This document shows positions 25,181 through 53,530 of a stretch of 64,000 nt of DNA, in pieces. Source of the DNA: Diphasiastrum complanatum (taxonomy: Eukaryota > Streptophyta > Lycopodiopsida > Lycopodiales > Lycopodiaceae); NCBI GenBank assembly GCA_029204225.1, contig CM055095.1:55021612-55085611 (forward strand). The letters run 5' to 3'. Both the position numbers and the translations under genes were made by a program. Under the pieces are notes generated by a model. The model was not told the origin of the DNA. It was given only the letters and a program-made list of their open reading frames with translations, and searched no databases. Each line of letters opens with the position of its first letter. Position 1 is the stretch's first letter.

Positions 25181-25475
25181 TGTGAGAGTTCAGAAGGTGA
25201 TTTGACTGCTATGCGAAGGTTCTGCGAGGGTTCAGGCTGTCTGTGAGGGTTCACTCTCGCAGGAAGTGATCTCTCGCACAACTTGTTCTTGTGATTGGAT
25301 TTTCAAGACCAAACCATGTAGGCAGGCTAATTTTACTGCTCTGATTCCATTTAGGCACCTTGCGAGAGTTGGTAAGATGATCTTGATGCTCTGCGAGGGT
25401 TCTAAAAATTTTGCTTCTGGGAACTCTCGCATATACTAAAAAATGATTATACCTCCATCAGGAACTCTTGCAGAG
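25181..25475 (-). repeat. 14-bp motif array between pol and accessory frame of A
   Basis: About ten copies of TGCGAGRGTTC or its reverse complement GAACYCTCGCA lie here, for example at 25181-25191, 25211-25222, 25223-25233, 25242-25252, 25253-25263, 25361-25370, 25392-25402, 25421-25431 and 25462-25475. They occur in both orientations with irregular spacing. B has the corresponding array at 42197-42421. Confidence 0.85.
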
Positions 25476-25898
25476 ATTTTCATGGATGCATCTAGGTTAG
25501 ATCTGGTGACTGTCCAATTTTCAAGAGCTATCTCCCAGGGGATCTCAAAAAATCATGAAAAGAGTGCTCTTCAGAGTGTTTTTTGACAAGATCTCGAGAT
25601 TTTCTGATTTTTAAATTTTATAAACTGGTCATCAGCTTCATCCAGGCTTAATCTGACTGTTGGTAGTGCTCTGGAAGTTCTGATGGATTCTTGGCAGTAG
25701 ATCCATTAGTCAATCTGATGATATGCTTCCTTTTACCCTATCAAGATCTGAATTCTGATGGATTTTTCTGATCTTGCCAGATCTGGCTGAATCTTGATGG
25801 ATTTAGCTTGATTTGGCTTGATCTCCTTAGATCTAGCGGTGATGGCTGAGCAGATTAGCTTTTTTTTAACGTGCCACCCCCAATCTGGATCTGTCTCA

Positions 25899-28573
25899 CT
25901 ATGGTGGCCAGTACTTGTGCAATCGGCTACCGTTGATGGGTGTGTCGAATGGCGTCCCATCTAGCTTTTCTAAGTCCACGGTCCCATGATTAAGAATTTC
26001 CTTGATCCTATAAGGACCTTCGCCCGTGAATTTCAACTTCTCCTTGATCTCCTTGTTTTAACTTGTTTTATACATCAGGATCAAATCTCCTGAACGAAGA
26101 TCCTTCTTTTGTAATCTGCGATCATGCCAAGCTTTGCGTCTTTCCTTTTCAGCTACCAGTGCATGCACAGCTAGTAAGCGTGTTTCACAGAGTTTATGCA
26201 GAGCTTCGTGGAGTAGCTGTAGAGATTTGGACTCATTAAGACGTTGTGTGGTGGCAATCCTTAATGAAGGAACTAAAAACTCTACTAGCATCACACCATC
26301 CTGGCCATATACCAATTGAAAGGGTGTTTGATCAGTGCTCCCTTTATATGTTGTCTTGAATGCCCACAATGCAGCATGCAACTTGTGTTTCCAATCTGAT
26401 CTGCTAGCTTCAACTATTTTCGTGAGCACAGGATCTTATTGGACGATTATGCTTGCCCATTACCACGAGGATAATAAGACGTACTGGTTCTGTGGGTCAT
26501 GAAGAATTCCTCCAACAGGACCTTGATGGTCTCGTTGATAAAATGGCTTCCAGAATCACTGACTAGTTCCACCGGGCATCCGAAGCGCACAATGATATTT
26601 TCATAAAGGAACTTGGCAGTGGTCCTAGCATCAGCTACTCTTACTGCCTTGGCTTCGACCCATTTGGTGAGGTAGTCTGTGGCTACGATTATGTATTGAG
26701 CCTGGGAACTCCTTGCTGCAGGGTGAATTGGACCAATATAATCCAATCCCCATTTTTCGAACAGTGCTTGGGCTAAGACTGAGTGCAGTAGATCATAGTT
26801 CAATCTCGTTGGTCTCCTTGCCCTTTGGCACACATCGCACTTTTTCAAGTATTCCTTCGTGTCTTTATGAATCGTTGGCCACCAACATCCTGATTGTAGG
26901 ATCTTGCGAACTGTAATGTCAAATGCAAAATGACCTCCACCCATGCCTTCATGTGAAAGCGAAATGATCTGGGTGGTCTCATGAGGAAGAATACACCGCC
27001 GAAGAATTCCGTCTGGACCTCTTCGGTACAACTGGCCGACAATCAACTGATAAGGTCTAGCCTTCAAGATCAATTTCTGTTGTTCCGCCTTTGGTAGTGA
27101 TTTGTCTGGTTGGCCCCGCATTAGATATTCAAGAATGTCGGCAGCCCATTCTGGTACTGTATCCACGTAAAATAAGGCAGCATATGCCAGCTCATCGTCG
27201 AGTTGGGTTGCAATCTCCTTTCCCTTGATTTGTGACACATGATCTGCCATGTAGTGTTGTTTTCCCTTGCGAACTACTATCCGAAAATCAAATTCCAACA
27301 ACAAAATGAGCCATCTAGTGATTCTCCCGGTGTTGCAAGTTTTATTAACAAGATATAACAAGGGTTGATGGTCCGTATAAAAAGCAAAAAGTGTCGCCAT
27401 CAAATAGTGTCGAGACTTCTTAACCGCATAGATCATTGCCAATGTTTCCCGCTCTGTGGTTGAATAATTCATTTCGGCATCACTAAGCTGTCGGCTTGCA
27501 AATCGGATTGGAAAATACTTTTTGTGTTCACCTGGCTGGGTTAAGACTGCTCCAACTGCATACTTTGATGCGTCCGTATGCACGTGGAACTCAATGGACC
27601 AATTGGGTGGTCGTAAGATTGGTGCTGAGACCAATGCATTCTTAATCTACTGGAAAGCCTTTAGAGCTTTCTCATTCCAATGTGGATCCGTTGTGAGCTT
27701 GTAAATTGGTCTGGCTAACTCCGCGAAATCAAGAATGAAGATCCTATAATAGTTAGCATGACCCATGAAAATGTAGACCTCGCGGATCATCCCCGGTGGT
27801 GGTAGATCAATAATGATCCTGATGTTTGATAGATTTGTGGCGATCCCGTGTCTTGACACTATATGGCTGAGTATCAAGCCATGTGTCACCCAGAGTTGAC
27901 ATTTTTCTGGATTCAGGGAGATCTGGTATTCGCAGCATTTTCGTAGCACCTTCTCCAAATTGGATAAGTGTTCTGAATCTTGTCCATGCATGCATGGATT
28001 GTCCAAGAAAATTTTCAGAAATTTTTGCAAATAATCATTGAATGCTGTCTGCATGACTCGTTGGAAAGTGCTTGGGACATTGCAAAGTCCGAATGGCATT
28101 ACTTTATAGGCATAAGTTCCTCATTCCGTGGCGAATGTTGTCTTGTGCTAGTCCTGGGGGGCTATTTTCACCTAGTTGTAGCCGCTGAAGCCGTCTAGAA
28201 AACTGTAGGCTTCGTCGCCAGCTACTCTATCAAGGACACTTTCCGTAAATGGTAAAGTAAAATGGTCCTTTTTGGTGATTGCATTAAGCGCCTTCAGATT
28301 CACACAGATCCGCATTTTGCCATTCTTCTTGGGTACTATAACTATCGGCGATACCCATTTCATGTGCTCGATTTCATAAATGAAATCTGCATCCATAAGC
28401 TTCTGCAACTCTTGCTTGATCAGTTCTGTATAATTCGGGTTGCAGCGGTAGTAACGGCTTACCTTGGGGACTGCTCCGTCCACCAAAGGTATGGTGTGTT
28501 GGACTATTGTTGGTGGAATGCCCTTTAGATCAGTATAGCTCCAGGCAAAACAACCTTTATATTCCACCAACAA
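25899..28573 (-). pseudogene. element A pol: RT, RNase H, integrase
   Basis: On the minus strand: RT N-terminus (CFAWSYTDLKGIPPTIVQHT; MRICVNLKALN) from 28573, RT palm (MPFGLCNVPSTFQRVMQ) from 28099, RNase H (FHVHTDASKYAVGAVLTQPG; FYTDHQPLLYL) from 27634, integrase zinc site and core (DVCQRARRPTR; KWGLDYIGP; VSDSGSHFINETI) to 26447, and the integrase C-terminus (KLKFTGEGPYRIKEILNHGT...HKYWPP) to the TAG at 25901-25899. Stops at 28174 and 28150 and a TGA near 28120 interrupt the RT, and there are frame changes near 27640 and 26440. The catalytic position in the RT palm reads FLDN rather than YxDD. The family resembles Athila/Tat (non-chromodomain) gypsy polymerases. Confidence 0.88.
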
Positions 28574-28799
28574 GGATCGTAGTCTCTTGAACTACATGGG
28601 TGTTAACTACTCTCCCACATGAACTATCCTTTCTTCTTCTCTTGGTTCCGCAAGATTCATCGGCAATGTTCACGCAGGTCTCTCGAAGACTTGTTCCACT
28701 GGTGCCTGACTTTGATCAGGTTCTTGTTGGGCTTGCGGCATCATGATTACCACGTCGTCCAATGTATAATTCTTGAAAGTATCAGGCATCTCGTGAACT

Positions 28800-31243
28800 G
28801 GAGCTCATCGAAATTCCTCTTTCAGCATATTGATCTTGGTCTGACTGGTCATTTTTTTATTTTCTGTCATCTGTGTAGAAGATGACGTTGTATCCGAGTC
28901 CAACTTGATTGACTTCAAGGAATCCAACACCTTCTTTTTGCTCCTTTTTGTCATTTTGGTGGGTTTATCCTTGTTGTCTTTCTTCAGGGCTACTGTGACA
29001 TTCGCCTCATGGTTGCGAATATCAACGTCTACTGTAGCTATTGCCTCTTCGGGTAGGTCACTCCATCGGATCACCTGGTTGTAGCGTTACTTCAACTAAT
29101 TCTTCTTATTCGCAGGTGCCTTGGGTGGTTCGATCCTTGAGACTTTCGCTTGTGGTGCAATCTGCAGTAGTTCTCCGAGTGGTAAACTAAGATGGCTTGA
29201 TAGCAAGAGTGTGAGCCTTTCAGTGCGTGGTATGTGAAAAGGTGGTTCATGTTGCTGCAACCGATCATTCTGATCAGTGCGCAGTGGTGAGCCTGTTTGT
29301 CGTTTCCGTTCGACACCGACTAGAGGTTCTTTGGGATTGTTTCGTTCTTGCTATTTTTACTCCTCTTGTGTTTTTTGTACCCAGTGTCTTATTTTCTGGT
29401 ACTGTCTTCTCTCTTCCCTCACATTTGGATATGGCGCTGAAGTTGAGGGCTGGTCGTTAGTGATTGATGGTGGTGGTGAGGGAGCTACTTCCTTCCTCTT
29501 CTGTGCTCACGTAACAGCTAACACATGAGCGTGGTCTTGTCGACCTTTCGATGGCATCCCTGCTGGAACTACTGGTTGCTGTATGCCAATTAGGTAAAGA
29601 GGTGCACTGGTTCCAGGTCTAAATGGACAATTCTTGAAACAGTTTCCATAATCTCAATCCCGACAGGAGGTTGTATATTGTCCCTTGTAGGGACATTCTG
29701 CAATTCTGTGTCCCTCGTCGCATCCGTAGCAGCCGTAATTTCTTCCACCTTGACCTTGAGTTTGAACTGCATAGGCCGAAACATATTCATTTATGGTAGG
29801 ATCCATAAAGGGTTCATCTGGTCCGGACTGCTGCTGCTCAGGTTGAGGTGGCATTTGCATTTCTTGTTCCGCTGTTGTCAGGTTTACATGGGCCACTTGT
29901 TGATTGGCTGGCCCTGGTGGAGCAGGTAAGGCCATGCGTTGTGGTTGATTGGGTGCGCCGTATCTAGGTATTGCGTTAGATGCCCCTTGATGATATGGAT
30001 AAGAAGTCTGATAAGGACTTATCTTCTATTGAACAGCTCTGGGGTTAAACGGGCAAAATGTTGTATTATAGATGACATAATCTATGTGTCAGTCTCAGAT
30101 TTTGCTTTAGGACTGGACACTCATTTGTTGTATGGTTTTGCGTGCATACTGAACACCATACAATTTCCCATCGAGGATACTGCAGCTGGTTTGGTTCCGG
30201 TTGATGTGGAGTTACTGCTACAGTTTCTTGTAAGGCCTTCAATTTCTGGTCAAACTGCACCGTAAGTTGTTCCATCTGCTGTTTGTGTAAAATTGTTATT
30301 TGCTCCAACAGCAGTTCTGTGGATAGAGTGGATGTATTTGATGATTATGATGCGATCGAGGGAGTAGGAGTGTGGGTGGAAGGATATTCGTCGTCAGATC
30401 CCTCATCCTCTTCCCTGATGGCATCTTCCATAGCTTCTTGCAGGGTAGCATACGGCTCCCGTCGTTTCAGTTCTCTTCTGATGCTTCGTGGTAATACGGC
30501 TAGGAACCGCATGATCACCACATGATCGGGATTCAGGACTGCACTGCACTCAGATCGTAGGTGTTTGACCCGTTCAATATAGTCCCAGACCCTTTCTCGT
30601 TTTCCCATCTTGACTTTGCTCAGCAGGAGAAACGGGTCTTCCAGGAACTTCCTTGGCTTAAAGCGCGTAATGAGAGCCGCTTTAACCGCTTCCCAAGTGG
30701 ATTTCTCTTCCTCTGACAGGATAAAAAACCAATCATGAGCCATTGCAAGTAAGGACATAGGGAATAACATCAGCTTCTCTGCAGGTGTCTGTTCGTCGTA
30801 TATTTTACAAGCTTGTTCGTAGATCTAGAGGAATCGGATGGGATCTGATGATCCATCGTATTTTGGTATCTCCATCCGTGGTGCTCTTCGAACTATATGC
30901 AAGGGTGCGACAGGTCCGGGTTGGCCCATTGGATCCATTGGTGCTGGTTTCGGTTCAGCCTCTTGTTGCATAACTGCTAATCTGGGAAGGTGTGGTGTCT
31001 GATTTGCTATCCTACACGTTATTGATTGTCCCGATCTCAGATTCATCCGATGGTGGGTTCCAAAGTGATTGGATCTTGCTTATACAGTAGGATGCAGTCT
31101 GGATCTTCAAGAATCTGATCGATCTGATCAGCTGGAATGAATTTTAGGCCTTTTACGGTGGTTTTTCCTTGATAACGTTTTACTCCTTGCACTGATTGAC
31201 CTGAGATTTTGACAGTAGCTGGATCTGATGCAGATCTTTCCAC
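28800..31243 (-). pseudogene. element A gag with zinc knuckles and linker to pol
   Basis: On the minus strand: an N-terminal frame from 31243, a segment reading MEIPKYDGSSDPIRFL that ends at a TAG (30827-30825) where C has CAG, then the capsid-like retrotransposon gag domain (ALITRFKPRKFLEDPFLLLS; VWDYIERVKHLRSECSAVL) at 30770-30345. Two zinc knuckles of C-x2-C-x3-H-x4-C form follow (CSVCTQNHTTNEC near 30155; CYGCDEGHRIAEC near 29731). A lysine-rich linker at 29074-28805 leads to pol. No protease D-S/T-G motif is found. The open blocks are separated by stops and frame changes. Confidence 0.8.
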
Positions 31244-31249
31244 TGATCT

Positions 31250-32045
31250 GGTCTACGAGGGTTATCTTGTGCAAGGGTTGGCTGTGCGAGGATTTTTTAG
31301 CTATTTTTGCAGGTAAAAAACTTGATATCTTTTAGATCTTTGGGAAGTAACTATTGCAAGCTTCATAGTAGCTGGATCTAGGTCGGATCTCACTATAGAA
31401 TTCTCTACGAGAGTTAACTCTCGCAAGAAGTGAAAATTTCACTGTCTGCGAGAGTTCAAAATCACTTTTTGTGCTTGATCTTCACCAGATCTTCATACTA
31501 ACTCTCGCAGGCTTCATCACAGATGTAATTTGACATTCTGAATCGATTGAGAGGGTCTGCGAGAATTTTAAGTGGAAGGATTTGCTGGATCTTCACTTTT
31601 TAGTAATTTTTTAGCACTTAAATCCAATTTTCTGCTCATGGGAATCAAATCAACTCTCTCAAGCTCTTATGTGTCTTGGTCTCACTGAGATGGAACTTTA
31701 GAATCCTCTACGAGAGTTCTTGACCACTGGAACTGAAAATCTCACTGTCTGCGAGGGTTCAGTGGTACTTTCCCATCTTTTTTTTCACTGGGAACTCTCG
31801 CACAGGCACTTAATCATCAAACTAACTCTCACAAGTTTCTCTGTGTCCTGGTCTCACTAAGATGGAACTTCGGAGGGCTCTGCGAGAGTTCTTATGAAGA
31901 TTTGGTTTTTTTCAAGGGTTTTTTGAGTTTTTTTATGATTTTTCTCTTATTTCTACAATCTGCTTAGGACTAAGTCTCGCAGGCTTCTATGCAGGTCTGT
32001 GACAGTACCTTGGAGCTGCTGCCAGTCATGCAAGGGTTAATTTCC
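31250..32045 (-). repeat. 14-bp motif array in the leader of A
   Basis: About a dozen copies of the same motif as at 25181-25475 (GAACYCTCGCA/TGCGAGRGTTC) lie between the primer site and gag, for example near 31408-31427 (two facing copies), 31444, 31499, 31556, 31697, 31749, 31791, 31823, 31878 and 31974. Both orientations occur and spacing is irregular. Confidence 0.85.
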
Positions 32046-32330
32046 ACTAATTATGGAGATATAAGAATCTGATGAGGTTTTTGGCTCTTTTTCCCTCCAA
32101 AATGCAGATTGGTGTGTTTCTTGAGTTTTTTGGAAGATTGGTTTGGGTTTCAAGCCCTTTGAGGTTGTTTAGGGCCTCCTCTACCCACTCACACCTCCTC
32201 CGCTAGCTGTGAACAGTCCAAATACAGAAAAATACAGAAAACTAATTCTAAACTCCCAAAAATCTACCTAAACTACTCTAAAAAGCAGGAAAATAGCTAA
32301 AATGCAACTAAACTAGTTAGTGAAAATCTA

Positions 32331-32348
32331 TCCCTGGCAACGGCGCCA
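32331..32348 (-). other. primer-binding site of A, tRNA-Asp type
   Basis: The minus strand reads TGGCGCCGTTGCCAGGGA, matching 17 of 18 bases of the complement of the plant tRNA-Asp 3' end. This primer is used by Athila-type elements. Confidence 0.9.
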
Positions 32349-32349
32349 C

Positions 32350-33152
32350 TGTGGGGTCGAAGGTCTCTCATAGTATAGCCCTTCTGCCTATCAACAAAGG
32401 TCAGATCACTGGATAGGTGTCTAACTATGCATAGATGCTACTTTTTGTTAATTTCCTACTTTCTCCCTTAACTCTACTCACCACTATACTACTCATCTTT
32501 AACTCTACTCCTCTACACCTACATTCATCATAGTTTTGGTTGAAGAGAAGGAATGGAGAACAAGAGATTGAGAAGGGAAGAGAAAGAGAGAGATAGAGAG
32601 TGAGGGTGGAGGTTAGCTCAAATGCTCCTTATGCTTGCTAATGGAAAAACATTCACTATGGCAAACAATAAACATGGAAATAGAAAGCAATGGAAAACAC
32701 AATCAAGAGAAATAGCAAATGAGGATGCTTCTCTTTAAAAAATGGTAGAGTTTCCTCCTTCTCATTTAGCATGGAAATAGTGTACAAATGGTGCCTTTTT
32801 ATAAAATGGGAAAGGCCCTTGCCCCTCAATCTTATTGGCTAATATTCACAATGATCCTATCCATTCATCTTGGACCCAACTTGATCCAAGGGTCCACAAA
32901 AAGTACATTAGAAAATCACAAGATTCATGTGAGTCCCAATTTGGACCCAACTCTAAAAAGTGATCTCTAAGTTTAAAAATGGCATTAGGCCTCTAGTTTT
33001 ATTTTAATTACAAGGCCCAAGTCAAGTTTATTTTATTTACAACTTCAATTGCGTGCTCATTGGGCCATGGGCTTATACACGTAGGATGCCATGCCCTCAC
33101 AACACATTTTATTGTAGGATTTTATTTATTTACACTTTGTTGGAAATACCTC
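32350..33152 (-). repeat. 5' LTR of element A
   Basis: This sequence is found inverted at 45966-46738 (LTR of B). Shared blocks include GGTATTYCCAACAAAGTG at the LTR start, CAATCTTATTGGCTAATATT, TTTTATAAAATGG and the end AGACCTTCGA. TTTTATAAAA near 32795-32805 may be the core promoter. Confidence 0.85.
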
Positions 33153-33295
33153 AGACGTCAAAGACAGCCATCGTCTGATCAAAAACTGAGGAGTCATAGA
33201 CGTCCCTGTTTTGATCAGAGTGAGTATACAAGCACGATCAGACAACAATGAAAGTGCTTTTAAACACAACAAGCATTCATCTACGTTTTTTAGCG

Positions 33296-34730
33296 CAGGT
33301 ATCCCAAAGGGACCCAGGAACCACGACTTAGCTTTCCAGCCTTCAACTCTTGCCATCCAAATCGACTTGACATACACGCAGCCAACTCGCCAACAACGAT
33401 CAGACTTAACCAACTTGAAGTTCCGAAACCAACATTGAGATCCAACCTGGTGCCATGCCAGATCGGGGGTCCCGATGTGGGTGACTTCCCTCCAAGCAAG
33501 CCGCCCGACATACATCAAACTTAACCAACTCGAAGCTTCGTTACAATTGAGTAACATCCATTCCAAGCAAGCGGTCTGACTTACATCAAACTTAACCAAC
33601 TGACACGAGTGCTGGAAGCCAACCTGGCACCACGCCAGACTGGACAACCATAAACAGATAACTTCCACCCAAGCAAGCCATCCAACTCAGCCGACAGGTT
33701 AGAGCTCGTTCCCCAAGTGCTTAACCCATTCACGTTCATGCAAGGAAGACTCAGAATCACAAGCCGCATTAGATATGAAGACAACCAATTCCTAGACCAT
33801 AGCATACCGCTAGTGCCACGGACCGAATGGTCCCGACGACATACCGCTGGCATCCTGGGATACGACCCTTACTATGTGCCAGATCAAAAAGTTTGAACCG
33901 GGCTTACAACTGGCGCTTTTACCGAACACTGAAACCCAGAAGGTAATCAGAGTCAATTTGAGAAAAATCCCATTTTATTAATAAATCTGAGAAGGTTACA
34001 TTTCAAGTGTGTGATCCACCCTAGTCTTCGGGGCGCTCGCATGCCAAGGCGGGCGCCAGGACAACATTCCAGCAAGGGAGGCTGAGACTTAGTTGGCTCC
34101 AGATTTGATCAGTTCCAGATAGGTATCAGGCCTCCCTGAGCCAAAGGATTTATCGTTTGATTGCCCACTTTATGGTCCACTCCATGCCTTGATGCTTTTG
34201 CACCTTGATTTCTCTCCTTGTCCCAGCCTGATCTTGATACTTTTCCTTTTTGGCTCTTTAAGGTAGGAAAAGATTGAGTACTCCGCAATGCACCTCTCAC
34301 TTAGTTTGAAATAGCTGTCTTTGAATCAGTCCAAATGTAACCATTGACCTCGTGGAGAGCCAAGGAGTCGCACCACTTTGATCCGCATCCAAACTATCTC
34401 TTCGCATTTTTTTGAAGTACCATGTTCATCGCGCAAAACTTGACTTTCACAATTCCATCACTGGTCAGTTGCCTTTCAATACAAACTATCCCATAGCGTT
34501 CGTTCGAAGTACCAAATCTTTCGTGCAAGACTCAACTTTCACAGTTCTTTCGTTGATCAGCTGCTTTACACATGACACAAGTCAGCATACTCATTATGTC
34601 TCCTCATCATTGCTGGTCCAGAGAAAGCCTATAACAAGCTTTCCTTTCCTCAACAAAAAACTTGTCAACTTATTAGGTCCAAAGTTTGCCAGTCTCCTTG
34701 TATGAGTATGGCTAGGTCACCTTGAATTTG
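33296..34730 (-). repeat. probable 3' LTR of a non-coding gypsy derivative (element E)
   Basis: The block at 33297-33367 (GCAGGTATCCCAAAGGGA...CTCTTGCCATCCAAAT) recurs at 35952-36026, directly beside a primer site, so it is an LTR end. TTAATAAATCTGAGAAGGTTACATTT near 33973 resembles, on the minus strand, the polyadenylation region of the 7126-8043 LTR. The LTR start is uncertain; a G-rich tract on the minus strand (ACGGGGGCAAATTC, near 34730) is a candidate polypurine tract. Confidence 0.5.
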
Positions 34731-35858: not shown

Positions 35859-35934
35859 CTTGCACAACAATTGTCTTGATGAACTCCAAACAGTGGCCAT
35901 TTCCATGAGATCCGCATAGCTAACCAGCCAGTCG

Positions 35935-35946
35935 GCTCTGATACCA
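35935..35946 (-). other. primer-binding site of element E
   Basis: On the minus strand TGGTATCAGAGC follows the LTR end GCGATACA with the same TG spacer as in the 7126 element. Confidence 0.9.
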
Positions 35947-35948
35947 CA

Positions 35949-41610: not shown

Positions 41611-41924
41611 TTGCTTGCCAACTGAAAATTAAAAAATAATTTCATTCAATTAACACAATCATTACGGGTATAATAGTTACTGAACCAAGCAATGTCTACA
41701 AAAAACCAATTTACAGACCGTACGTGCTTTTATTTTCAAATTATATCAATGAATCTGCAAATGGATTGTTACACAATAAAAATCGGAATTTAAATCAATG
41801 CACTGAAAATCCTATAACAACTCTTAGCTCATATAACATCTGCAAAATTAAAATATCAGTTCTTAGAAATTGAAAAACCCACTACGAGAAATAAATCCAC
41901 AAATTAAAAAGAACTCCAAATTCT
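41611..41924. other. element D leader, no gene
   Basis: AT-rich sequence between D gag and the left break of element B. No tRNA primer site was found, so D is truncated here or its primer site is decayed. Confidence 0.4.
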
Positions 41925-42196
41925 GATAGGGTAAAAAAAGAAGCAGATCATCAGATTGACTGATGGATCTACTACCAAGAACCCATCAGAACTTCCAGAG
42001 CACTACCAACAGTCAGATCAAGCCTGGATGAAGCTGATTACTAGTTTACAAAAGTTAAAAATCAAAAAATCTCGAGATCTCGTCAAAAAACACTCTGAAA
42101 GAGCACTTTTTTCATGATTTTTTGAGATCCCCTGGGAGATTGCTCTTGAAAATTGGACAGTCACCAGATCTGACCTAGATGCATCCATGAAAATCT

Positions 42197-42421
42197 CTGT
42201 GAGAGTTTCTAATGGAGTTATAATCATTTTTTAGTGTATGCGAGAGTTCCCAGAAGCAGAATTTTTAGAACCCTCGCAGAGCATCAAGATCATCTTACCA
42301 ACAATCACAAGAACAAGTTGTGTGAGAGATCACTTCCTGCGAGAATGAACCCTCACATACAGCCTGATTCCGTGCAGAACCTTCGCATAGCAGTCAAATC
42401 ACCTTCTAAACTCTCGTAGAC
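42197..42421 (+). repeat. 14-bp motif array of element B
   Basis: Copies include 42239-42250 (TGCGAGAGTTCC), 42268-42282 (GAACCCTCGCAGAGC), 42338-42360 (two adjoining, opposite orientation), 42377-42390 (GAACCTTCGCATAG) and 42408-42421. The array corresponds to 25181-25475 in A and lies upstream of the accessory frame. Confidence 0.85.
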
Positions 42422-42793
42422 TTCCCTGAGGTCTTAGAATTTTGTGAAGAAGGTGCCTGTCAAAATTTGGGTGGAACTGAACAAGAGAAAGTGAGTTTCA
42501 ACTAAGACGCACTCTAAATTCCACTATATAAGGGCTGAATTCGAGTCATTTGTCACCTTTGCTAGTGAAGCTCTACCAAAGTTTTCACTGAAAATACCAA
42601 GTTTTATGTTCTCAACCAAACTTCCTACCAGTTGTCATCTGCTCATATTAAACACTGATCTACGCTCTGAACTACAATCATTGTCCTCCAACACTCATTA
42701 TTCTCAATTTTCTACTGTTTCCACATCTTTTTTCATTTTCCACCGTTTTTTCTACTTTTCCAACTTTTTCGACCACTAATCATCATTGCTAAC

Positions 42794-45700
42794 ATGGCCT
42801 CCTCATCCTCTGAAGACTCTGGCGCCAAACAGGTGATCCAGCGTGACATCCCGGAGGCCATGCAGATTTGGCCTCTACCCTCTGACACTCTGATCCAACC
42901 ATGGATGCAAACAGTCGGCCCACTCCTTGAAGCAATGGATTTTTACTCGGCGCTCTTCCATTCTAAGATTAACATGGGCCTCGCCCTTCACGCTTACGCC
43001 ACCTGGGATGAGGACAAGGCTCGTTTCCACTTCTTGTACCAAGGTACCACGTACAAGGCCAGAATTAACGCCGACTCAATGGTCATTGTTGGCATTATGT
43101 CCGATGATCATCAACCATCTCCCATCGCCACGCCAAGGCTCTAATCAAACCATTCGTCACCCAAACCACACCAGAAATCCCCATCCAGACTAACAATGGT
43201 TACCTGATAGAAGCTATCACGGAACCCGTCATTCAGGTGGCTGCGCATCTGTTGAATAACTTTCTAATTATTTCAATATTTTGCAAGGACAGAATTCAGT
43301 CTACGCTGCTGAGTCAGATAGTGGAATCCTTTCTGGAATTCCCTAACCCCTCCGTTGTGCCATACGACTGGCATAGCTTTCTTATTCGAGAACTAACAAA
43401 CTCCATCAAACCCAACAACCGTGAGCGCATCACAGCAGGCCTCCTGTTGTGTAACTTTGCCTGCGCACTTCTCGAGGCTAAAGTGCGCGGTTTCCAATGC
43501 TCATCCCTCTTGTCTACCCTTGTGCCACATACTAACCTTTACCCACCATCTCAAGCATCTACCTCCTCCCAACCTGTAGTCATTAACACAACGGCCAGCA
43601 AACGAATGCGTGGCACTGCCTCTATATCCACATCTCCACCTGTTACCCGAAGACGTGTCTCCACTGCCACAGTAGCCACTCCATCAACCACCGCCACTTC
43701 TTCTTCTGTGCAACCCCCCACTCCAATTTCTGTTGCCGCTACCTCTCTTCCTATTCCATCCACATCTATTTCTGTCTCCATCCTCGTTTCTTCTGTTGAT
43801 ACCACTCCTACTTCTCTTCCAGTGTCCACTACTCCATCCATCACCATCGCATCCTCCATCACTCCTGCCACCACCATTGCTCCTCTCACATTCAATCCTT
43901 CTGATTCGCAACTATCCCCCGACACTCTGGCATGGATGCAAGTTATCAAGTTTTCACCCCCACGCCAGACACTTTCTGCTCCATCCTCACCTTCTTCCAT
44001 ACTCCACACCACCCTTCAGTTCCCCACTGTTCCTCCCATCCTCTCATTCAGACAAACCGTCCTCACCCCTGTATTCACAGTTGTTTCTCACACCCCACCC
44101 GCTTCGCCAACAAAGGTTGCCAAGGGCAGCCAACCGTTTTCTGATGACGCATTTGTACATACAATTTTTGTAGCATCACCAGATCGGACTGACCCTACCA
44201 CCCCAGATGACATCAGGACAAATGAAAACCTGATCGAAGACAATGACGACGAAATTCCACAAGTTGTCGGAGCCGATACAACACAAGCCCTTGCCAGTGC
44301 CAGTGTACCAGCTGCTCCCACGGATCTAATGACTGCATACCAAACTCTAGGAAAATACATCTTGGATGCGGTAGCGGCCAAAACTATTCTGGAAAGCAGG
44401 GTACTATAGTTGGCAACGAGTAATACACAACTACGAACAGACCTCACCAAGCTGCACCAAGAGCTGATTCTGACTCAGCAACACGAACAAGCAGGGCACC
44501 AGGAGATTGCCAAGCTACAGCAGAAGGAGGAGGGCCTAAACAAATATATTCAAAGCCTCTCCAAAGCATTGACGGAGGCCTCCACAAAGGTGCGGGAGCT
44601 TCAAGTTGAAGCATCCCAACGGCTTGCCCCCATCGAGGCGCAACTTACACTTTTGGAAGCAGAGAACATGCGCTTGGGGACGGAGGGCAAAGCCTTACAA
44701 GATGAAAAGCTCGTCTAGTTAGCTCAATCTGCACCGGACACAAGGCCGCTTTCTCAATCAGAGATGAATCTTCTACGGCGTCAGGTGTAGATTTATAGCC
44801 AAACCCTCAACAGCTACCAGGCGGAGTTCAATAAGTATCAAGCAAGCGCAACGCAAGAGCTCGCCCAGGCCAAGCAAGCCCTCAAGGCGTGCCAAAAATA
44901 CATGGAAACGAAGGCCCAGCCCACCCCCGTGGTAATCCCACCGCCACCTAATTTTGACGCTGCACATGCTAGTCCCAACCAAGATCAGAGCCAGCAGGCA
45001 GCATGGGAATTTCAACCAGATCAAGCGTCCAAAGGCCAAGACCAAGGGCAGACAGATGCAGCCGTTGAGACGCGAGACTAGAGCCAAGGCGCAATCACCA
45101 GCCAGGGCCAAACAACATCATCCAGAGGCTCGCGTACGATATCTGTCAGCCAGGCCTTTCGAAGACCGAAGTCCGTGGAGGAGAATATCAATGAATTTAT
45201 ATCCAAATATCCCACGAGTCATCAAGAGACAGTTGACAAATATCATTCTCAGCTCAGACCATCAAGGAAAAAGAACTGCAAGCCTTACCCACCCTCCAAC
45301 TACAACCGGAGTGGCGACAACAATTATTTGAGAGAGACCCTACATCCATCAGGGCTTACGTGACGAGTCCGCAACAGTTACGACTGAACGCGAATTTCCT
45401 GCCATGTCCAAGAAGATCCAAATGGGCGGAATGCGGCACTCCTCTAGACCAGATCACACTGCACAATTTCAACTAGCCAATCATCAAATCTGAATATGGG
45501 TGGACAACAGATGTAGACGCCAGAAGGGCTCTCTCCGCATTCGCCAATCGCTACATCAGTTGCCCCGATCCCACAGTCCGCGCGGTAGCCACTTACGTCC
45601 GGGACTTAGAATATTTAATGGGCATTGAAAAAAATGGGATGATTTTCTCCCCTCCATATTTTTTGATCCAAATAAGGCTCTCGCTTCCAACAAAGTCGAA

Positions 45701-45918
45701 GACCAGCTGCTAGTCGCTCGCGTATATTACCGGGCTGCATTCCTTGGAGATCCCTGGACGAAACGATTCCAAGCATGGGTGGATCAGGAATGGCTGACAG
45801 GAGTCCACAAGTCCTTTCACATGCCAAAGGACTCGAAGAAACTGGACCGTCTCAACTTCATGGAAGACGTTACGGGCTATCTCATCCACCAGAGGCGGTC
45901 CAAGAGAACGCTATACTA
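42794..45918 (+). pseudogene. element B accessory frame, nearly full length (about 1040 codons)
   Basis: It starts at ATG 42794 (MASSSSEDSGAKQ). Regions in order: N-terminal globular (to about 43140), central helical (VVPYDWHSFLIRE; 43237-43520), Ser/Thr/Pro-rich (43560-44150), coiled coil (LHQELILTQQHEQAGHQEIA; 44350-44700), Gln-rich linker, and a C-terminal domain (45130-45918) ending RRSKRTLY before TAA. The C-terminal domain matches C (VSPQQLRL / VSPRQLRV; FDPNKALAS / FDPNKPMAS; LNFMEDV / LDFMEKV). Breaks: a frameshift near 43113, TAG at 44407, 44716, 44788, 45079 and 45474, and frame changes near 45300 and 45640. The function is unknown. It has no recognisable gag, pol or dUTPase motif. 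Confidence 0.75.
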
Positions 45919-45965
45919 AACCGGCAGAGTGCCGAGGGACCGACACTACTTCAAGCCGTGGGTCC

Positions 45966-46738
45966 TGTTGGGGGTATTCCCAACAAAGTGTAAATAAATA
46001 AAATCATCCAATAAAATGTGTTGCGAGGGCATGACATCCTGCATGTATAAGCCCATGGCTCAATGAGCACGCAATTGAAGTTGTAAATAAAATAAACTCG
46101 ACTTGGGCCTTGTAATTAAAATAAAACTAGAGGCCCAATGTCATTTTTGGACTTAGAGATCACTTTTTAGAGTTGGGTCCAAATTGGGACTCACATGAAT
46201 CTTATGATTTCTAATATACTTTTTGTGGACCCTTGGATCAAGTTGGGTCCAAGATGAATGGATAGGATCATTGTGAATATTAGCCAATAAGATTGAGGGG
46301 CAAGGGCCTTTTCCATTTTATAAAAAGGCACCATTTGTACACTATTTCCATGCTTAATGAGAAGGAGGAAACTCTATTATTTTTGGAAGAGAAGCATCCT
46401 CATTTGCTATTCACTACTTGCTATTGCTCTTGATTGTGTTTTCCATTGCTTTCTATTTCCATGTTTATTGTTTGCCATAGGTGATGTTTTTCCATTAGCA
46501 AGCATAAGGAGCATTTGAGCTAACCTCCACCCTCACTCTCTATATCTCTCTTCTCTTCAACAAAAACTATGATGAATGTAGGTGTAGAGGAGTAGAGTTA
46601 AAGAGTAGTATAGTGGTGAGTAGAGTTAAGGGAGAAAGTAGGAAATTAACTAAATGTAGCATCTATGCATAGTTAGACACCTATCCAGTGATCTGACCTT
46701 TGTTGACAGGCGGAAGGACTATACTACGAGAGACCTTC
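45966..46738 (+). repeat. 3' LTR of element B
   Basis: It starts at TTGGGGGTATTCCCAACA, directly after the accessory stop and a short spacer. It matches the LTR of A in inverse orientation to AGACCTTCGA, where it breaks off. TTTTATAAAAAGG near 46317 may be its TATA box. Confidence 0.85.
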
Positions 46739-46923
46739 GAAATATTTTTTTAGATCCAAAATGACATGAGATAGCTACAAAACTTTGGTTCTTCATTATC
46801 AATTGTGTGGAGAGCTACACATATTTATGGAGATTGAGGTAGCTCGAGGTAGAACCATATCTATCCATTCCAAAATGACATCTAGAGTCTATGTGACATT
46901 TGTCACTTGTCATGCATGAAATT
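46739..46923. other. unassigned junction between elements B and C
   Basis: About 185 bp with no match to the LTRs of B or C and no coding content. Confidence 0.4.
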
Positions 46924-47422
46924 TTGAATAAAAAGAGAGGCAAGACTGGACCAATAGGATTCAGAGGCCAGGGTCCTCTTCTTTACTATAAAAAGAGACC
47001 AACTCGAGTTGTTCCTCATGTTCATTTTCTCATTTCAATAAAGCAGATTGGTTCTCTTTAGACATGGATTGATGAATGTCCTTGCTCTGCCTCTCCTTTC
47101 TTTGGATTTTGCTAATTGTTGGATCTGATCATTATTGGAATTGTTATTTCTTATATTTTTTGTGAGAGAAAAAGGGAGAGAGATAAGAGTAACTTTCTAT
47201 CATTGTTGTGGATTTAGGATTAATGGAAGTAGGATTAATGGATGTAGTGTTAATTCTTAGTGTTAATGGATGTTAGTGTTAGATCCTCCATTCATGTTGA
47301 AATCTGAACTATACTATCGCTCTCATGGGAACGAACCTCCGCGTGACAACTAACTCCGTCTCTTTGATGCTAGATTGACTAGATCTTGGATTCAGGTTAG
47401 GCAAGGAAAGAAACCCACTACA
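46924..47422 (+). repeat. 5' LTR of element C (left part missing)
   Basis: It matches 55813-56334 and ends in AAACCCACTACA. About 238 bp of the LTR start are absent. Confidence 0.9.
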
Positions 47423-47426
47423 ATAT

Positions 47427-47444
47427 TGGCGCCGTTGCCGGGGA
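47427..47444 (+). other. primer-binding site of C, tRNA-Asp
   Basis: TGGCGCCGTTGCCGGGGA is the exact complement of the plant tRNA-Asp 3' end (18 of 18), four bases after the LTR. Confidence 0.95.
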
Positions 47445-47761
47445 GCTACGCCAATTTTTCAGTTTGCATCATGTTTGATTGATGGTTAGCTTGCATTAGG
47501 CATCTTGTCGTGGCATGAATAGTGTTAAATCTGCATTTTAGGGTTAGTTTGGGATTGATTTTGCTTGATTAGAGTGGATTTTCTTGTTTGAAATCTAATC
47601 TGATTATTAACAAGGGAAAGCTATTCAGATCACCAATCTTAAGATCCATTTGGATCTGAGATATCAGAGAAAATAACAAAAATCGGTCAAATCTGTCAAA
47701 TTTGGTCAAAAAGAGGCAAAAAGCGTCATCAGAGCTCAGAACTTTTTACCCTCTTTCATGA

Positions 47762-48405
47762 AACCTTCGTCGAGTCACAAACACCTTTGGTTTTGTTTAC
47801 AGAACCTTCAGTTTGAAGGGCGAAGATTAATTTCCAGCAGATTTCTAGAAACATCAGAAAAACCACCAAAAATCACCAAAAATTATCAAAACCCTAAAAA
47901 ATACAGAAAAAGAACCTTCGCCCGATTCACTGTGCTTAGATGTGATTCAGATCTATCTACTGCCAGATCGACGAAAAATAATACCAAAAATAGAAAGAGT
48001 TTCAGAGGATCAGTTGTCATATTGTCATATTTTTGCCAAAAAAGTCACTTTTTTGCAAAATTACCAGTATTATTCTTGATCCTTCTCCAGAACCTTCGCC
48101 GAGTTTCCAGAATATTCTATTTGTAGAAAAATACTATTTTTGAGTTCGGCGAAGATTCTTCTTGATCAAATCACAAAAAATCTTGATTTTTACCCTCGCT
48201 AGATTACAGAAACTATATTTTCTTGTGTCAGAAACCTTCGTCCAGTTTTTCATAGTTTTATTTGTGTCAGATCTTCCATCTGAGAAGTTGGCAAAGGTTA
48301 TTTCCCAAGAAATTGCCAAAAAAGTGTTCAGAGATTTTTTTTTTCTCCAAAATAGCACTGTTGGATCTTTGCCGAGCCAACCTTCGCCTAGAGAACCTTT
48401 GCCAG
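47762..48405 (+). repeat. 14-bp motif array in the leader of C
   Basis: Copies of GAACCTTCGCCGAG or its reverse complement lie at 47762-47774, 47802-47811, 47912-47925, 48090-48103 (exact), 48145-48158 (reverse), 48231-48245, 48367-48376, 48377-48391 and 48393-48405, among others. The motif is the C-family version of that in A and B (GAACCCTCGCAGAG). Confidence 0.85.
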
Positions 48406-48679
48406 TCCTATTTTTAGTTTCTGATTTTCCAGATCAAGTCTTTATAAAAAATTGGATCAAATATGATATATTCTGAATTGGATTATGAGAGATTTATCAT
48501 TTTTGAGAAGTATCGATTGATCGAATTTCGAAAAGTTTTTCATCATATAGAATCAGATTATTGAAAAGTGGAATAGAGCTAGCAGATCAAATCTGAGATA
48601 GTTTTTTGAGAAAATCTATATCCAATCTCATTATCGATTTGATCTAAATTTGTAAAGATAGCTACCCTTGGAGGTGCTC

Positions 48680-50469
48680 CACAGGAGGTCAATCCAATTA
48701 TTGTTAGAAGAGCACCCCGATCTACCCAAATATAATAGATTAACAGATCCAATTAGATTTCTTCAGATCTATGCTGAATCCTGTGAGGTCTATGGTGAGA
48801 TTTATCCTCAAGATAAACTTAAGTTGTTTCCTATGGCCTTAATAGGCGCAGCACAAGATTGGCATTATAACCAAGATGAAACTGAGCGTACAGATTGGGA
48901 GGTTGTTAAACGAGCCCTTATCACACGGTTCAAACCGCGGAAGCTTATGGAAGATCCTTTCCTACTTTTAAGTAAAATTAAAATGGGAAAGAGGGAAATG
49001 GTTTGAGATTACATTGAAAGGGTGAAACGTCTTAGATCTGAATGCGAACTTGAGCTGATTAATGAAAATGCCATGATTATGTGATTTTTGTCAGGTCTAT
49101 CTAAACGGATCAGACGTGAGCTGAAACGCCATAATGAGTACACACTTTTGTAAATGCTATGGACGATGCAATTCGGGAGGAGGATGAAGATTCAGGTGAT
49201 GAGCCGAATGTCAGTATATTGCCTTATACAGCAGGGCAGACTACTACAACATCCACAACTATTGCATCATTGAATGCCAATGCTACTGCAGAAATGATGC
49301 TCAATGAGTTCGAGAAACTTGGGAAGACCCAACAGAAACAGATGGAAAAGTTGCAGTTGCAATTTGATGAGAAGATCGAAGCATTGGAAAATTTCCACGG
49401 AGAAGCGAACAAGGAACCTGAGAAATTTGCAAAGACTTTTTCTACCAGGGAAAATATATGGTGTTCTATTTGTACATGAAATCACACAGCGATCGAGTGT
49501 CCTCAATTGAAAAAATGAATGAAAATCAGTGTTTGCCATCTGTGTAATTCACCTGACCATGAGACTGTTTTTTGCAACTTCAACCTTCGGATAATTCAGC
49601 AACGGTATGTCCAGATGGGATATCGAGATCCATAGTATGGATGAAATCCAGCAGCAAGACTACGACAATCTACTTTTGGATACCCGGAACGTCTAGCTTT
49701 GCCTGCCCCACCAAAACACTCCGCTCCTCCTGCCAATTTGATGGAACCAGAACCTTACGGAAGTGTTGAGCAATGGAGCTATGATAATGATTAGGAAGGT
49801 GGATCTTCAGAACAATATGCCATTTATGCTGCCGCTCAACAACAAGCCTCGAGAAATTGGGCCAGAGCATCACTTGGATGCTTTGCATGTGGAGAAAATC
49901 ACAAAGTTGCAGAATGCCCAAATAAAGAAAAATTTGTACCATTCTGTCATGATTGTGGATATGGGCATTGCTATAAAGACTGTCCAGCAAGACCGAAGCC
50001 ACCACCAGCTACAGCACCTGTAAATTTGATAACAATCAAGCAAGAATTAGTAGCTCAGAATAAACCAAGTGCACCCTTGATGATGGTCACCAAGGCGCAA
50101 AAGTTAGCTCAAGAAGAACCAGTAGTGGATCCAGTACCTGCTGATTCTATACCATTACATCTGCAAGAAGAAGAGGAACTTGAAGCTGCTAAAGTAACAA
50201 CTGAAGTTCGGTCTTCACCATTGCAGCCTCCAAGAAATTTACGTATGAATATGAATGATCAATTACATCATCACGAAGAACCCTTCAAGATGACTGAACC
50301 GGAAGCACCGCATACAGAGTTACTCATGAATATTGTGTCTAGCAAGATCAATATTTCATTGGGAGAGTTCCTAAAGTTGGTGCCAAAAGCAAAAGAAGTC
50401 TTAGCGCAAAAGTTAGCTCAAGAAGAACCAAAAGTCCATCAGGAGCCATTTTTTTTGTGCTGGATTTGA
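48680..50469 (+). pseudogene. element C gag with zinc knuckles
   Basis: The capsid-like domain reads ALITRFKPRKLMEDPFLLLS (48668-49006), is interrupted by TGA near 49003 and 49081, and continues through IREEDEDSGDE. Zinc knuckles of C-x2-C-x3-H-x4-C type follow: a damaged one near 49460-49550, then CFACGENHKVAEC and CHDCGYGHCYKDC at about 49879-49974. A Gln/Glu-rich linker (50026-50469) leads toward protease. It aligns with A gag across the domain. Confidence 0.85.
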
Positions 50470-52920
50470 AGAATCTAACGATGTACTCCATGTTGGAGTC
50501 GCTTGGAAAAGTGAACAAAAGAATATCACTCTACCGATACAACATAGACAATTTTCTAAAGAAGCAGCCGTGATAGATGGCGGTTCAAGAGTTAACCTGA
50601 TTCTACAAAGCTATGTACAAAATGGGCCTTACAAAGATTAAGCCTGTTACTTTCGCTATTAAGCTAGCTGATCAAACGATAGTTTGTCCATGAGGAATGG
50701 TGGAAGATATACTTGTCAGGATTGCACGAGTTCTATTAGGATGTCCATGGTCACGAGTTCTATTAAGTATCAAGATTGCTTTGCATGGACTTATCAAGAT
50801 TTGAAGGGTATATCGGCATCAGTGATTGAACATACCATACCTTTAGTAGCTGATGCAGTACCAAGGGTTACAAAGTTCTATCGATGTAATCCTAATGTGG
50901 CAGATCTGATAAAGAAAGAACTTCAGAGATTGCTTGACGCCGATTTCATTTATGAGATCAAGCATACAGAATGGATTTCACCGATTGTGTGAATCTCAAA
51001 GCATTGAATAAAGTGACACGGAAGGATCACTTTCCGTTACCTTTTACTGAAAGCATTTTGGATCGCCTTGCTGGAGCGAAAGCTTATAGTTTCCTGGATG
51101 GATTTAGTGGTTACAACCAGGTTAAGATTGCACCTGTCGATCGCCACAAAACTGCTTTTGCAACAGAATGGGACACCTATGCTTACAAAGTAATGCCGTT
51201 TGGACTCTGTAATGCACCAAGTTCATTCCAAAGAGTAATGCAATTTGTCTTTAAAAATTATCTGCAGAAATTTCTTGAAATTTACTTGGACGACTTGGGA
51301 GTTCATAGTACAGATACAGACCACTTGGATCGATTGGAGAAAGTATTTGAAAGATGCCGCAAATATCAGATTTCTCTAAATCCAGAAAAATGCCAGATAT
51401 GGGTTTCGCATGGAGTTGTGCTTGGACATGTGATATCAAGACATGGTATTGCCACCGATTATTCTAAGATCAAAGTTATGTGGAATTGCCACCGCCAGCA
51501 ACAATTTGAGGAGTTTATGTGTTTATGGGTCATGCGAACTACTATCGAATTTTTATTATCTTCTTTGCGAATTTAGCACAAACTATATACAAACTAACTA
51601 TTATTTCTATTTGGACAATAGAGGCGTTAGAAGCCTCTGAAAAGTTAAAAAAAACATTATCTTCAGCACCAATACTGCGTTCTTCAGATTGGAAATTAGA
51701 GTTTCATGTTCATACGAATGTCTCAAAATACACCATTGGATCAGTTTTGACGCAGCCAGGTGACTATAAGAAGGATTATCCTATACAATTTGCAAGCAGA
51801 GTTACAGAAATAGAGAAGAATTATTCAATAACAGGATGTAAAGCGCTAGCCATGATTTTTTCTGTTTGAAAATTTCATCACTACCTCATGGAAACGCATT
51901 TTGCATTTATACGAATCATCAACCGTTACTTTACTTGGTAAATAAGATGTGTAATACTAGACGTATTGCAAGATGGTTATTATTTGACTTTCGAATTGTG
52001 GTCAGAAAGGGGAACAACATTATCTAGCCGATCACGTTTCGCGAATTGAATCCGCACCAGTTAATACTGAAGTGGATGATGAACTGCCAGATGCTGCATT
52101 GTTGTATGTTGAAGCGGTACCTGAGTGGGCAGCAGATATTGTTGAGTACCTGATGCTATAAAAGTATAGAAAAGACAATTGATTCATAAGGCTCAACCTT
52201 ACCAATTAATTACAGGGCAATTGTATCGTCGTGGATTAGATAATATTTTACGAAGATGTGTTTTATCGCATGAAGTACCAGATTTAATCATGTTTTCACA
52301 TGACGGCATGGGTGGAGGACACCTCTATACCGATATTACTGTTCGCAAACTTTTACAATCTGGATGTTGGTGGCCTACGCTTCATAAGGACACAAAAAAT
52401 TTTATTCAGACATGTGATGTCTGCCAGCGAGCATGACGGCCTACTCGATAGAATTATGAACCCTTACATCCGGTTTTATTGCAAGCACCGTTTGAAAAAT
52501 GGGGACTGGATTATGTTGGTCCTATTCATCCTGCTGCTCAAGGATCTCAGGCCCGATACATTATCATCGCAACTGATTATATGACCAAGTGGGTTGAAGC
52601 CAAAGCTGTCAAAGTGGCTGATGCGAAATCTACGGCCAAGTTTCTGTATGAAAATATTATAATCAGATTTGGATGTCTGATCAAAATTGTCAGTGATCGG
52701 GGTACACACTTTGTTAATCAAACAATAAAGTGTTTACTGGAAGATTTTTTTTGTTATACACAGATTACGTACTCCCTATTATCCCAGAGGAAATGGCCAA
52801 GCTGAATCTTCCAATAAGATTCTCTGCACCATTATGACAAAGACAGTTGAAGCGAGTCGATCTGATTGGGAACATAAACTGTATGCAGCATTATGGGCAT
52901 TCAGAACCACGCAGTAATTC
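50470..52920 (+). pseudogene. element C protease trace, RT, RNase H and integrase
   Basis: A protease-like AVIDGGSRVNLI (about 50565-50600) has D-G-G in place of D-S/T-G. RT begins near 50770 (CFAWTYQDLKGISASVIEHT), loses a few residues near 50990, and continues with YSFLDGFSGYNQ, MPFGLCNAPSSFQ and catalytic YLDD (about 51280). RNase H follows (FHVHTNVSKYTIGSVLTQPG), then integrase zinc site (CDVCQRA) and core (KWGLDYVGPIHP; VSDRGTHFVNQTI), ending near 52918 in EASRSDWEHKLYAALWAFRT. There are several stops and frame changes. No chromodomain follows. Confidence 0.88.
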
Positions 52921-53238
52921 TTGAGCACTTGGATGGAAAACGATTTGATACTCTGAATGACAACCGATTACGCAAGTTTTGACATCCTGCTCCGCCAATT
53001 CAGAGAGCCTAATCTCAATATATTTTTTAATTTTATTTGTTTTTCAGTTTTTTGTTTTTCAGTATTTAATTTGCTGATTTTTTTGGAAAAAGACACTTAC
53101 AAAGGAAAAAAAAAAAAAAAAAGACTGATGAGCAAAAGTCAGGAAGTCATCAGCATAAGAAAAATGAAGCATAGTATTTTTGATGGACAATGTCTTAGAA
53201 AATCACTGTTTTGGACAGATTTGGCCAATACAGTATCA

Positions 53239-53530
53239 GAAACCTTCGTTGAGCTCTCAGACTGTACATCCACCCTTGATTTATCTAAATTGAGGTGGGC
53301 GAAGGTTCTTGACAAGAGAAAATTCAATTTTTGAGTTAGACGAAGTGATATGCCATTTTGGGAACCTTTGCCGACCTGCTAGATGATCTTATAATGTCAA
53401 AATTAGGTTGTCCATAGGTTCAGATTATGAAAAAATGCATTTATGACAGTACCTGGGCGAAGGTTCATCCTTCACCAACCCTGAAAAACGTTCGCCTGAT
53501 AGGTTCAGATCCCTAGAAACCTTCGTCGAG
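53239..53530 (+). repeat. 14-bp motif array between pol and accessory frame of C
   Basis: Copies lie at 53239-53253, 53297-53308 (reverse), 53362-53374, 53455-53466 (reverse), 53489-53500 (partial) and 53516-53530. The position corresponds to the arrays of A (25181-25475) and B (42197-42421). Confidence 0.8.

Follow-up and report, generated by a model that had tools for sequence, protein, structure and literature searches.

In VANDAL DNA transposons, short family-specific motifs lie in non-coding DNA, their copies diverge together, and an encoded partner protein has been shown; the motifs of VANC21 stand in one orientation within tandem repeats (PMC5735166, PMC10398659). Sireviruses, which belong to the Ty1/copia group, contain repeated palindromic motif boxes, mostly with a CGG-CCG core, that are abundant in the long terminal repeats (LTRs); 77 of 79 linker copies lie upstream of ENV, near the promoter, with diverged flanks (Bousios et al. 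2010, PMC2829016). The Su(Hw) insulator of Drosophila gypsy is an array of 12 sites in the 5' untranslated region that is read by a host protein (PMC2374998). In foamy viruses, the DNA-binding transactivator Tas acts on both the LTR and the internal promoter, and the accessory gene lies behind the latter (PMC4929722). Finally, Retand with TRP28, a plant gypsy element, carries extra genes and repeats between pol and the 3' LTR, for which a regulatory DNA binder has been suggested (PMC11963269). In this study, we consider arrays of a short motif in three Ty3/gypsy elements, A, B and C, that lie in a stretch of 64,000 nucleotides of plant nuclear DNA (hereafter the window; G000:C4:55021612-55085611, from an assembly of 1.74 Gb) and that were first described in an earlier note on this DNA. 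We tentatively read them, at somewhat short of an even chance, as helix-phased cis-regulatory DNA arrays of a Ty3/gypsy group, most likely read by the elements' own accessory protein.

Motif arrays in plant retrotransposons are already known from the Sirevirus boxes, and here too many copies of a short motif stand in a plant LTR retrotransposon upstream of an extra 3' gene. Unlike those palindromic, LTR-abundant boxes, however, the present motif is asymmetric, has nearly no matches in the LTRs, occurs also in the leader and follows a helical grammar, and the elements are of the Ty3/gypsy type. With the VANDAL system the locus has in common a family-specific short motif in non-coding DNA and, by analogy, a hypothesised encoded partner protein. 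It differs in that the elements have LTRs and reverse transcriptase and in that the motif occurs in both orientations with a fixed, phased geometry. VANC proteins are linked to DUF1985, and no DUF1985 match was present among the Pfam results for the accessory pieces. Thus, the VANDAL-like reading put forward in the earlier note stands as regards the family-specific non-coding motif, its concerted variant and an array upstream of a TATA block, but the close parallel with VANC falls on orientation, geometry and DUF1985.

The Su(Hw) insulator and the present locus both have a gypsy leader in which one motif forms an array. The motif here, however, departs from the Su(Hw) consensus (the two were compared by consensus, with no scan), and the available part of PMC2374998 mentions no second array before an internal promoter. 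As with foamy virus Tas, an accessory gene would lie behind an internal promoter, with one binder acting on both promoters; here the promoter and the binder are putative, the former suggested by a conserved TATA block before the accessory gene. Foamy viruses are, by contrast, animal retroviruses, and no array grammar is mentioned in the available part of PMC4929722. Retand is likewise a plant gypsy element with an extra gene and repeats between pol and the 3' LTR, but it has antisense TRP28 open reading frames and tandem repeats, whereas the accessory gene here is in the sense orientation and without a Pfam match. By analogy, foamy virus Tas and VANC may be the closest working models, with Su(Hw) on gypsy for a reader supplied by the host. 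A literature search, mostly at the level of titles and abstracts and covering few subscription journals, found no report of phased arrays in gypsy leaders or spacers.

Each array lies either in the leader, between the LTR and gag, or in the spacer between pol and the accessory gene. The leader and spacer arrays of A are at 31250-32045 and 25178-25475 on the minus strand, and those on the plus strand are at 42195-42421 (spacer of B), 47761-48405 (leader of C) and 53240-53530 (spacer of C). Since A and B are 93% identical in spacer and accessory gene, and B is cut off at about 41924, before its leader, the window contains four independent arrays rather than five; the earlier note was therefore right about the presence and place of the arrays in all three elements but not about their independence. 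The four arrays hold 43 core sites with at most one mismatch, 23 of them exact: 16 (9 exact) in the A leader, 10 (5) in the A spacer, 10 (5) in the C leader and 6 (4) in the C spacer, for which a seventh listed site, at 52970, lies outside the array and is probably due to chance.

The motif is recovered without the word given earlier. When 9-mers are counted de novo, pieces of AACYYTCGC(A/C) rank first in each of the five leaders and spacers, and all 27 exact matches to the core AACYYTCGY in 64 kb are within these five regions (4,565 bp), with none in the remaining 59,435 bp of the window. Allowing up to three mismatches, GAACCYTCGCMGAG has 39 matches in the window, and all 20 matches with at most two mismatches are inside the five arrays. 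When a position weight matrix (PWM) is built from the A leader only, it picks up 10 sites in the A spacer, where dinucleotide shuffles give a mean of 0.72 and a maximum of 3; for one built from the C leader only, there are 7 sites in the C spacer (mean 0.55, maximum 3). PWM matches are densest in arrays of the same family, at 9-15 per kb; the density is 1.7-5.4 per kb in arrays belonging to the other family and 0-2.2 per kb elsewhere. The motif is thus real and stronger than first claimed, its exact cores being confined within the window to the five leaders and spacers and its density there being far above that in shuffles and coding parts. A chance origin was rejected on the basis of the de novo enrichment, the comparison of PWM matches with shuffles, and the genome-wide counts given below.

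The site is asymmetric and occurs in both orientations. Its information drops to 0-0.6 bit beyond about 11 bp, and the length of 14 bp stated earlier has to be reduced, as the PWM and the information profile give a conserved core of only 9-11 bp. Nine of the 20 imperfect sites differ by a change from CG to CA or TG. The form of the heat-shock element is GAAnnTTC; the C word was tried as such an element and rejected, because in terms of PWM information its first G is weak, while letters that are free in this form rank with the most constrained.

Spacing, which the earlier note had called irregular, follows a strict grammar: convergent pairs stand 58 bp apart, and sites on the same strand are phased at about 10.5 bp. 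When sense and antisense cores are represented as S and A, and start-to-start distances in bp as numbers, the A leader is S58A90S58A31A42S41S58A93S59A52S32A9S121S15S16S, the A spacer is A41A29S31S93A17A9S19S11S31S, and the C leader is S58A93S178S58A42S42S58A88S15S. The C spacer is S58A64S94A30S31S in the window and S58A42A29S31S111A30S31S in another copy, L009. For L050, which represents a more distant family, the grammar is S142A30S30S, to be compared with S31S111A30S31S in C copies, where 31 + 111 also gives 142. In the four window arrays, distances of the same type coincide 51 times, as against 15.1 +/- 3.8 when the sites are moved by up to 12 bp, and none of 2000 such runs reaches the observed number.

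The same distances recur elsewhere in the genome. At 49 loci, counted apart from the window and L002, there are 115 convergent pairs with a distance of up to 130 bp, and 36 of these have a distance of exactly 58 bp, where a uniform spread would give 0.94 per bp. Genome-wide, 7755 convergent pairs were found at distances of 44-74 bp (control, 100) and 5489 + 5344 same-strand pairs at distances of 24-54 bp (control, 177 + 181), although these pairs include related copies and hence describe elements, not independent trials. The first 50 distinct convergent places listed comprise 42 at 58 bp, four at 59, two at 56, and one each at 64 and 54. Similarly, 100 same-strand pairs listed are distributed over 30 bp (26 pairs), 31 (40), 40 (2), 41 (23), 42 (5) and 51 (4), and the remaining 25 distances allowed are empty; a period of 10.5 bp fits best (R 0.96). 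Shorter same-strand steps of 15, 11 and 19 bp, which fall outside the search range, also occur, and 15 bp does not correspond to whole helix turns.

A convergent pair spans a module of 67 bp. Modules in the A leader are, for example, at 31824-31890 (minus strand, 58 bp start to start), with others beginning at 31652 and 31972; the three of the C leader are at 48233-48299 (plus strand) and from 47762 and 48091, and the C spacer has one at 53241-53307 (plus strand). With L002 dropped, 43 modules fall into ten classes, four of which are single modules; the inner sequence of each class is less than 58% identical to that of the first module in any other class. Three features suggest that proteins assemble on the DNA: the site is asymmetric and occurs in both orientations, it keeps to one helical face, and convergent pairs form modules with a fixed distance of 58 bp.

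Alternatively, convergent sites might form hairpins in the genomic RNA that serve in packaging, export or translation. Sense and antisense sites are indeed complementary, and some modules have a dyad-symmetric centre: in preliminary counts, 22 of 50 of the central five pairs are complementary (13.2 expected, p 0.0035), as are 75 of 190 intermediate pairs (50.1 expected). However, over 12 positions the 58-bp partners are no more complementary than non-partners (8.90 and 8.81, from 30 and 128 pairs), the same-strand phasing of 10.5 bp has no RNA rationale, and no covariation of the arms was seen in the small set of families considered here. An RNA signal, which the earlier note had listed among its alternatives, is in our view highly improbable, whereas the occurrence of both orientations together with the lack of partner-specific complementarity speaks for a function at the DNA level. 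As a separate observation, a second word, CAGATC/GATCTG, is enriched in the five spacers (24950-32340, 41924-42680 and 47430-53700; 19 occurrences, 4.0 expected), and letters related to it stand at the centre of some 67-bp modules.

When the sites are masked, a single strong similarity between the A and C spacers is left, a 59-bp TATA block shortly upstream of the accessory gene, which scores 58 where shuffles reach at most 22; the few marginal or A-rich matches present elsewhere have scores of 25-36 (shuffle maxima 21-27). Together with the information profile, this agrees with the earlier statement that the motif is kept while its surroundings change. The blocks, which are candidate internal promoters, are at 25023-25082 in A (minus strand), 42524-42583 in B and 53625-53684 in C (both plus strand). 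In 11 of the 12 blocks found, L002 being left out of the count, a site stands 114-116 bp upstream of the TATA; in the more distant L050 the last site is at -63. Copies of A and C have in common a -146S site, where it is kept, and a close A-S pair, at -186/-176 in A and -176/-166 in C. Farther up, four sites correspond with a 9-bp shift (-296, -327, -356 and -397 in A; -287, -318, -347 and -388 in C). A CCAAT...TATA stretch is also common to the LTRs of A and C (5' LTRs at 32357-33150, minus strand, and 46925-47422, plus strand). Each element probably has two promoters, with an array downstream of the LTR promoter and another upstream of the internal one. Note that an open frame runs through the TATA blocks, in which differences between A and C, judged by eye, are often at third positions; the block might be partly coding.

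Rather than in transcription, the array could function in integration, chromatin targeting or nucleosome positioning, as a nucleoprotein platform. The fixed 58-bp modules would suit such a platform, and in the A leader (31180-32340) two successive module pairs recur at intervals of 148 and 151 bp, close to the length of a nucleosome. Nevertheless, the sites are internal rather than at the ends of the element, and the spacer array keeps a fixed distance upstream of the TATA block, so that we consider this explanation unlikely.

The motif exists in family-specific variants. At position 5, 25 of 26 A sites have C and 16 of 17 C sites have T; at position 10, all 26 A sites have A, whereas 16 of the 17 C sites have another letter, which is C in 14 of them. 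Leader and spacer of one element agree in the variant (Fisher p 0.38-1), whereas elements A and C differ (Fisher p 2e-7 to 6e-4); that is, the variant has changed in concert in the leader and the spacer of each family. For the other genomic copies, L002 (which overlaps L003) and the other families L020 and L030 were left out of the sums: of 75 exact A-type sites, 72 have A at position 10, 2 have T and 1 has G, and of 83 exact C-type sites, 71 have C, 8 have T, 3 have A and 1 has G. In the L025 leader, all six exact sites show a third combination, with T at position 5 and A at position 10. Position 10 is C in four of five exact sites in the L020 leader, whose gag is 61% identical to that of A at the amino acid level, in four of five in the L030 leader, and in all four sites, one of them exact, before the TATA block of L050. 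Such a concerted variant points to a family-specific reader, most simply the product of the accessory gene. The accessory C-termini of D (55%) and F (61-64% over 31-36 amino acids) are closer to C than to B (40-44%), and position 10 of the motif is mostly C in C, D and F and A in the A/B type. Motif variant and accessory C-terminal type thus co-vary in C, D and F as against A and B, although in essence a single evolutionary split lies behind this.

A host DNA-binding protein, or two paralogues, might instead read the arrays as an enhancer, insulator or silencer. The leader array is placed like the insulator of Drosophila gypsy, with its Su(Hw) sites in the 5' untranslated region (PMC2374998), helical phasing is compatible with any DNA-binding protein, and an accessory protein without a recognisable DNA-binding domain fits such an explanation. 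On the other hand, two nearly exclusive variants, concerted in leader and spacer, would require two host specificities, and exact cores are absent outside the five spacers within the 64-kb window. A host reader is a strong rival, only somewhat less likely than the accessory protein.

The geometry of the arrays appears to have outlasted the sequence between the sites. In the register set by the sites, the inter-site DNA of the A and C spacers has an identity of 42-54%, which marks the two arrays as homologous but old. Within a family, copies have accumulated 0.037-0.062 indels for each substitution. When this rate is applied to the A-C distance, assuming 260 bp and a Jukes-Cantor distance of 0.95, 9-16 indels are expected, while only two length changes, one of them of 10 bp, are observed (as a rough estimate, the Poisson probability of three or fewer is 0.02 to 0.00015). 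In the C spacers, site columns are also slower than inter-site columns (0.108 and 0.210, p 9e-5). A short word might also have spread or been homogenised neutrally, through slippage, template switching or gene conversion; local duplications inside the A leader (31392-31458/31695-31761, 79%; 31644-31721/31816-31893, 81%) would be in keeping with this, and the earlier note had listed spread by microhomology as an alternative. Such a process leaves the fixed helical spacing unexplained, however; the flanks of leader and spacer sites fail to align, and the spacing has been kept at the above inter-site identity with fewer indels than expected. It is therefore very unlikely.

The arrays are not restricted to the window. 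The 14-mer occurs 3123 times in the genome (1515 + 1608), as against 22 (14 + 8) for the reversed control. All 39 motif-centred loci inspected (L001-L020 and L022-L040, where L002 and L003 are one element) match the leader or spacer of the window's elements, L011, L020, L022 and L030 over only about 60-200 bp; these loci are all on contig C1, nine were chosen for variant words, and they are not a random sample. Hence, other genomic copies carry the arrays, and neither of the two results that the earlier note named as contrary to its view was obtained. In three stretches taken for further families, a spacer array with a TATA block was found only in L050, not in L048 or L049. One element, at L020 and L021 (C1:7894470-7907399), has gag and an accessory C-terminus (55% to C), with no pol match in the stretch inspected. 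The loci L022, L025 and L030 have leader arrays with kept spacing and neither a pol nor an accessory match in the adjoining stretch, and are possibly non-autonomous or decayed elements.

The accessory protein consists of an N-terminal domain of about 250 amino acids, an S/T/P-rich linker, a coiled-coil-like part and a C-terminal domain. All parts are present in the gene of B (42794-45916, plus strand); that of A (22973-24813, minus strand) has the first three, the C-terminal domain not being found there, and that of C (53774-55521, plus strand) has an N-terminal piece, the coiled-coil-like part and the C-terminal domain. The frame is interrupted in all three copies. The C-terminal domain is common to B and C, at 42-45% identity, and has a pI of 9.5 in C. 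No homologue of the C protein was found at E 0.001 among 5.8 billion proteins, including plant retroelement proteins.

On the basis of these sequence features, we propose that the arrays would be cis-regulatory arrays on DNA, in which a sequence-specific protein binds the asymmetric site of about 11 bp. Same-strand sites would be on one face of the helix, at steps of about three, four and five turns, and the proteins bound to convergent pairs at the fixed distance of 58 bp would form an assembly of fixed geometry. The spacer assembly, about 115-450 bp upstream of the TATA block, would control the internal promoter of the accessory gene, and the leader assembly would act on the genomic RNA from a position downstream of the LTR promoter. 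We consider the element's own accessory protein, with its N-terminal domain, coiled-coil-like part and basic C-terminal domain, the most likely binder; it may activate its own promoter and the LTR, or protect them from silencing, and do so within its own family only. In its full form, this amounts to a self-recognition circuit in which accessory proteins assemble at the leader and the internal promoter, on phased arrays made of 58-bp convergent modules and of steps of 31, 41 and 51 bp along one face of the helix, the specificity having split between families so that each recognises only itself; such a circuit is quite possible, if still short of probable.

Several results weigh against regulation by the accessory protein. 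No DNA-binding domain was detected in it by Pfam or Protein Data Bank (PDB) searches: Pfam scans of the accessory pieces gave only weak matches below the cut-off, and PDB profile searches gave one match at E 0.72 for the N-terminal profile and none for the C-terminal one. AlphaFold2 models of the accessory parts are unusable (pLDDT 42.7 and 41.9). The LTRs lack the motif: in a scan of four LTRs with five PWMs, four PWMs had no match and the A-spacer PWM had one, in the 5' LTR of C. Among the stretches adjoining the leader arrays of L020, L022, L025 and L030, none matched pol with the probes used, and only that of L020 matched the accessory gene. Site columns are not significantly slower than flanks in the C spacers (0.108 and 0.133, p 0.12) and no slower than inter-site columns in the A spacers (0.128 and 0.133, p 0.46). 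Finally, the genome places listed are the first ones on one contig, many being copies of few ancestors, and the single split behind the co-variation of motif and accessory type counts on the same side.

If regulation by the accessory protein is correct, LTR retrotransposons would join the VANDAL DNA transposons as elements that control themselves through a sequence-specific protein of their own, and would do so with a legible geometric code. With thousands of sites and site pairs in one genome, a single protein and a handful of DNA fragments would make binding, specificity switching between families and escape from silencing testable, and the spacing code would be a means of finding such arrays where the flanks have diverged past alignment.

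The remaining features of the elements are as follows. Element A runs on the minus strand in the order LTR, leader, gag, pol, spacer and truncated accessory gene; its gag and pol region (26061-30824) has Pfam matches to Retrotrans_gag, RNase H, H2C2 and the integrase domain rve. Element B, on the plus strand, ends in a 3' LTR at 45973-46740. Element C, also on the plus strand, has both LTRs, the 3' one (55818-56334) being 92% alike to the 5' one, and its gag and pol region (48662-52900) has an RVT_1 match; the pol of C aligns with that of A at 65% DNA identity. LTRs flank gag and pol with reverse transcriptase, RNase H and integrase in that order, as is typical of Ty3/gypsy elements. Among 120 relatives listed for the RNase H-integrase part of A, those named are from Adiantum (a fern), Riccia and Marchantia (liverworts) and Taxus, and there are further records labelled PITA and some from flowering plants.

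Apart from these elements, the window, which is rich in retroelements, contains a sugar/phosphate-type transporter gene (Pfam match Sugar_tr) that we take to be PHT1-like. Runs of short repeats at 1506-1683, 58995-59131 and 60248-60456 have mutually perfect matches, partly in opposite orientation. Another gypsy pol, of the chromodomain type, is open over 918 amino acids at 8973-11729 (reverse transcriptase, RNase H, integrase and Chromo); it is flanked by direct repeats at 7126-8043 and 11971-12888 that are 98.9% identical, and the region 7126-12888 is probably a young element.

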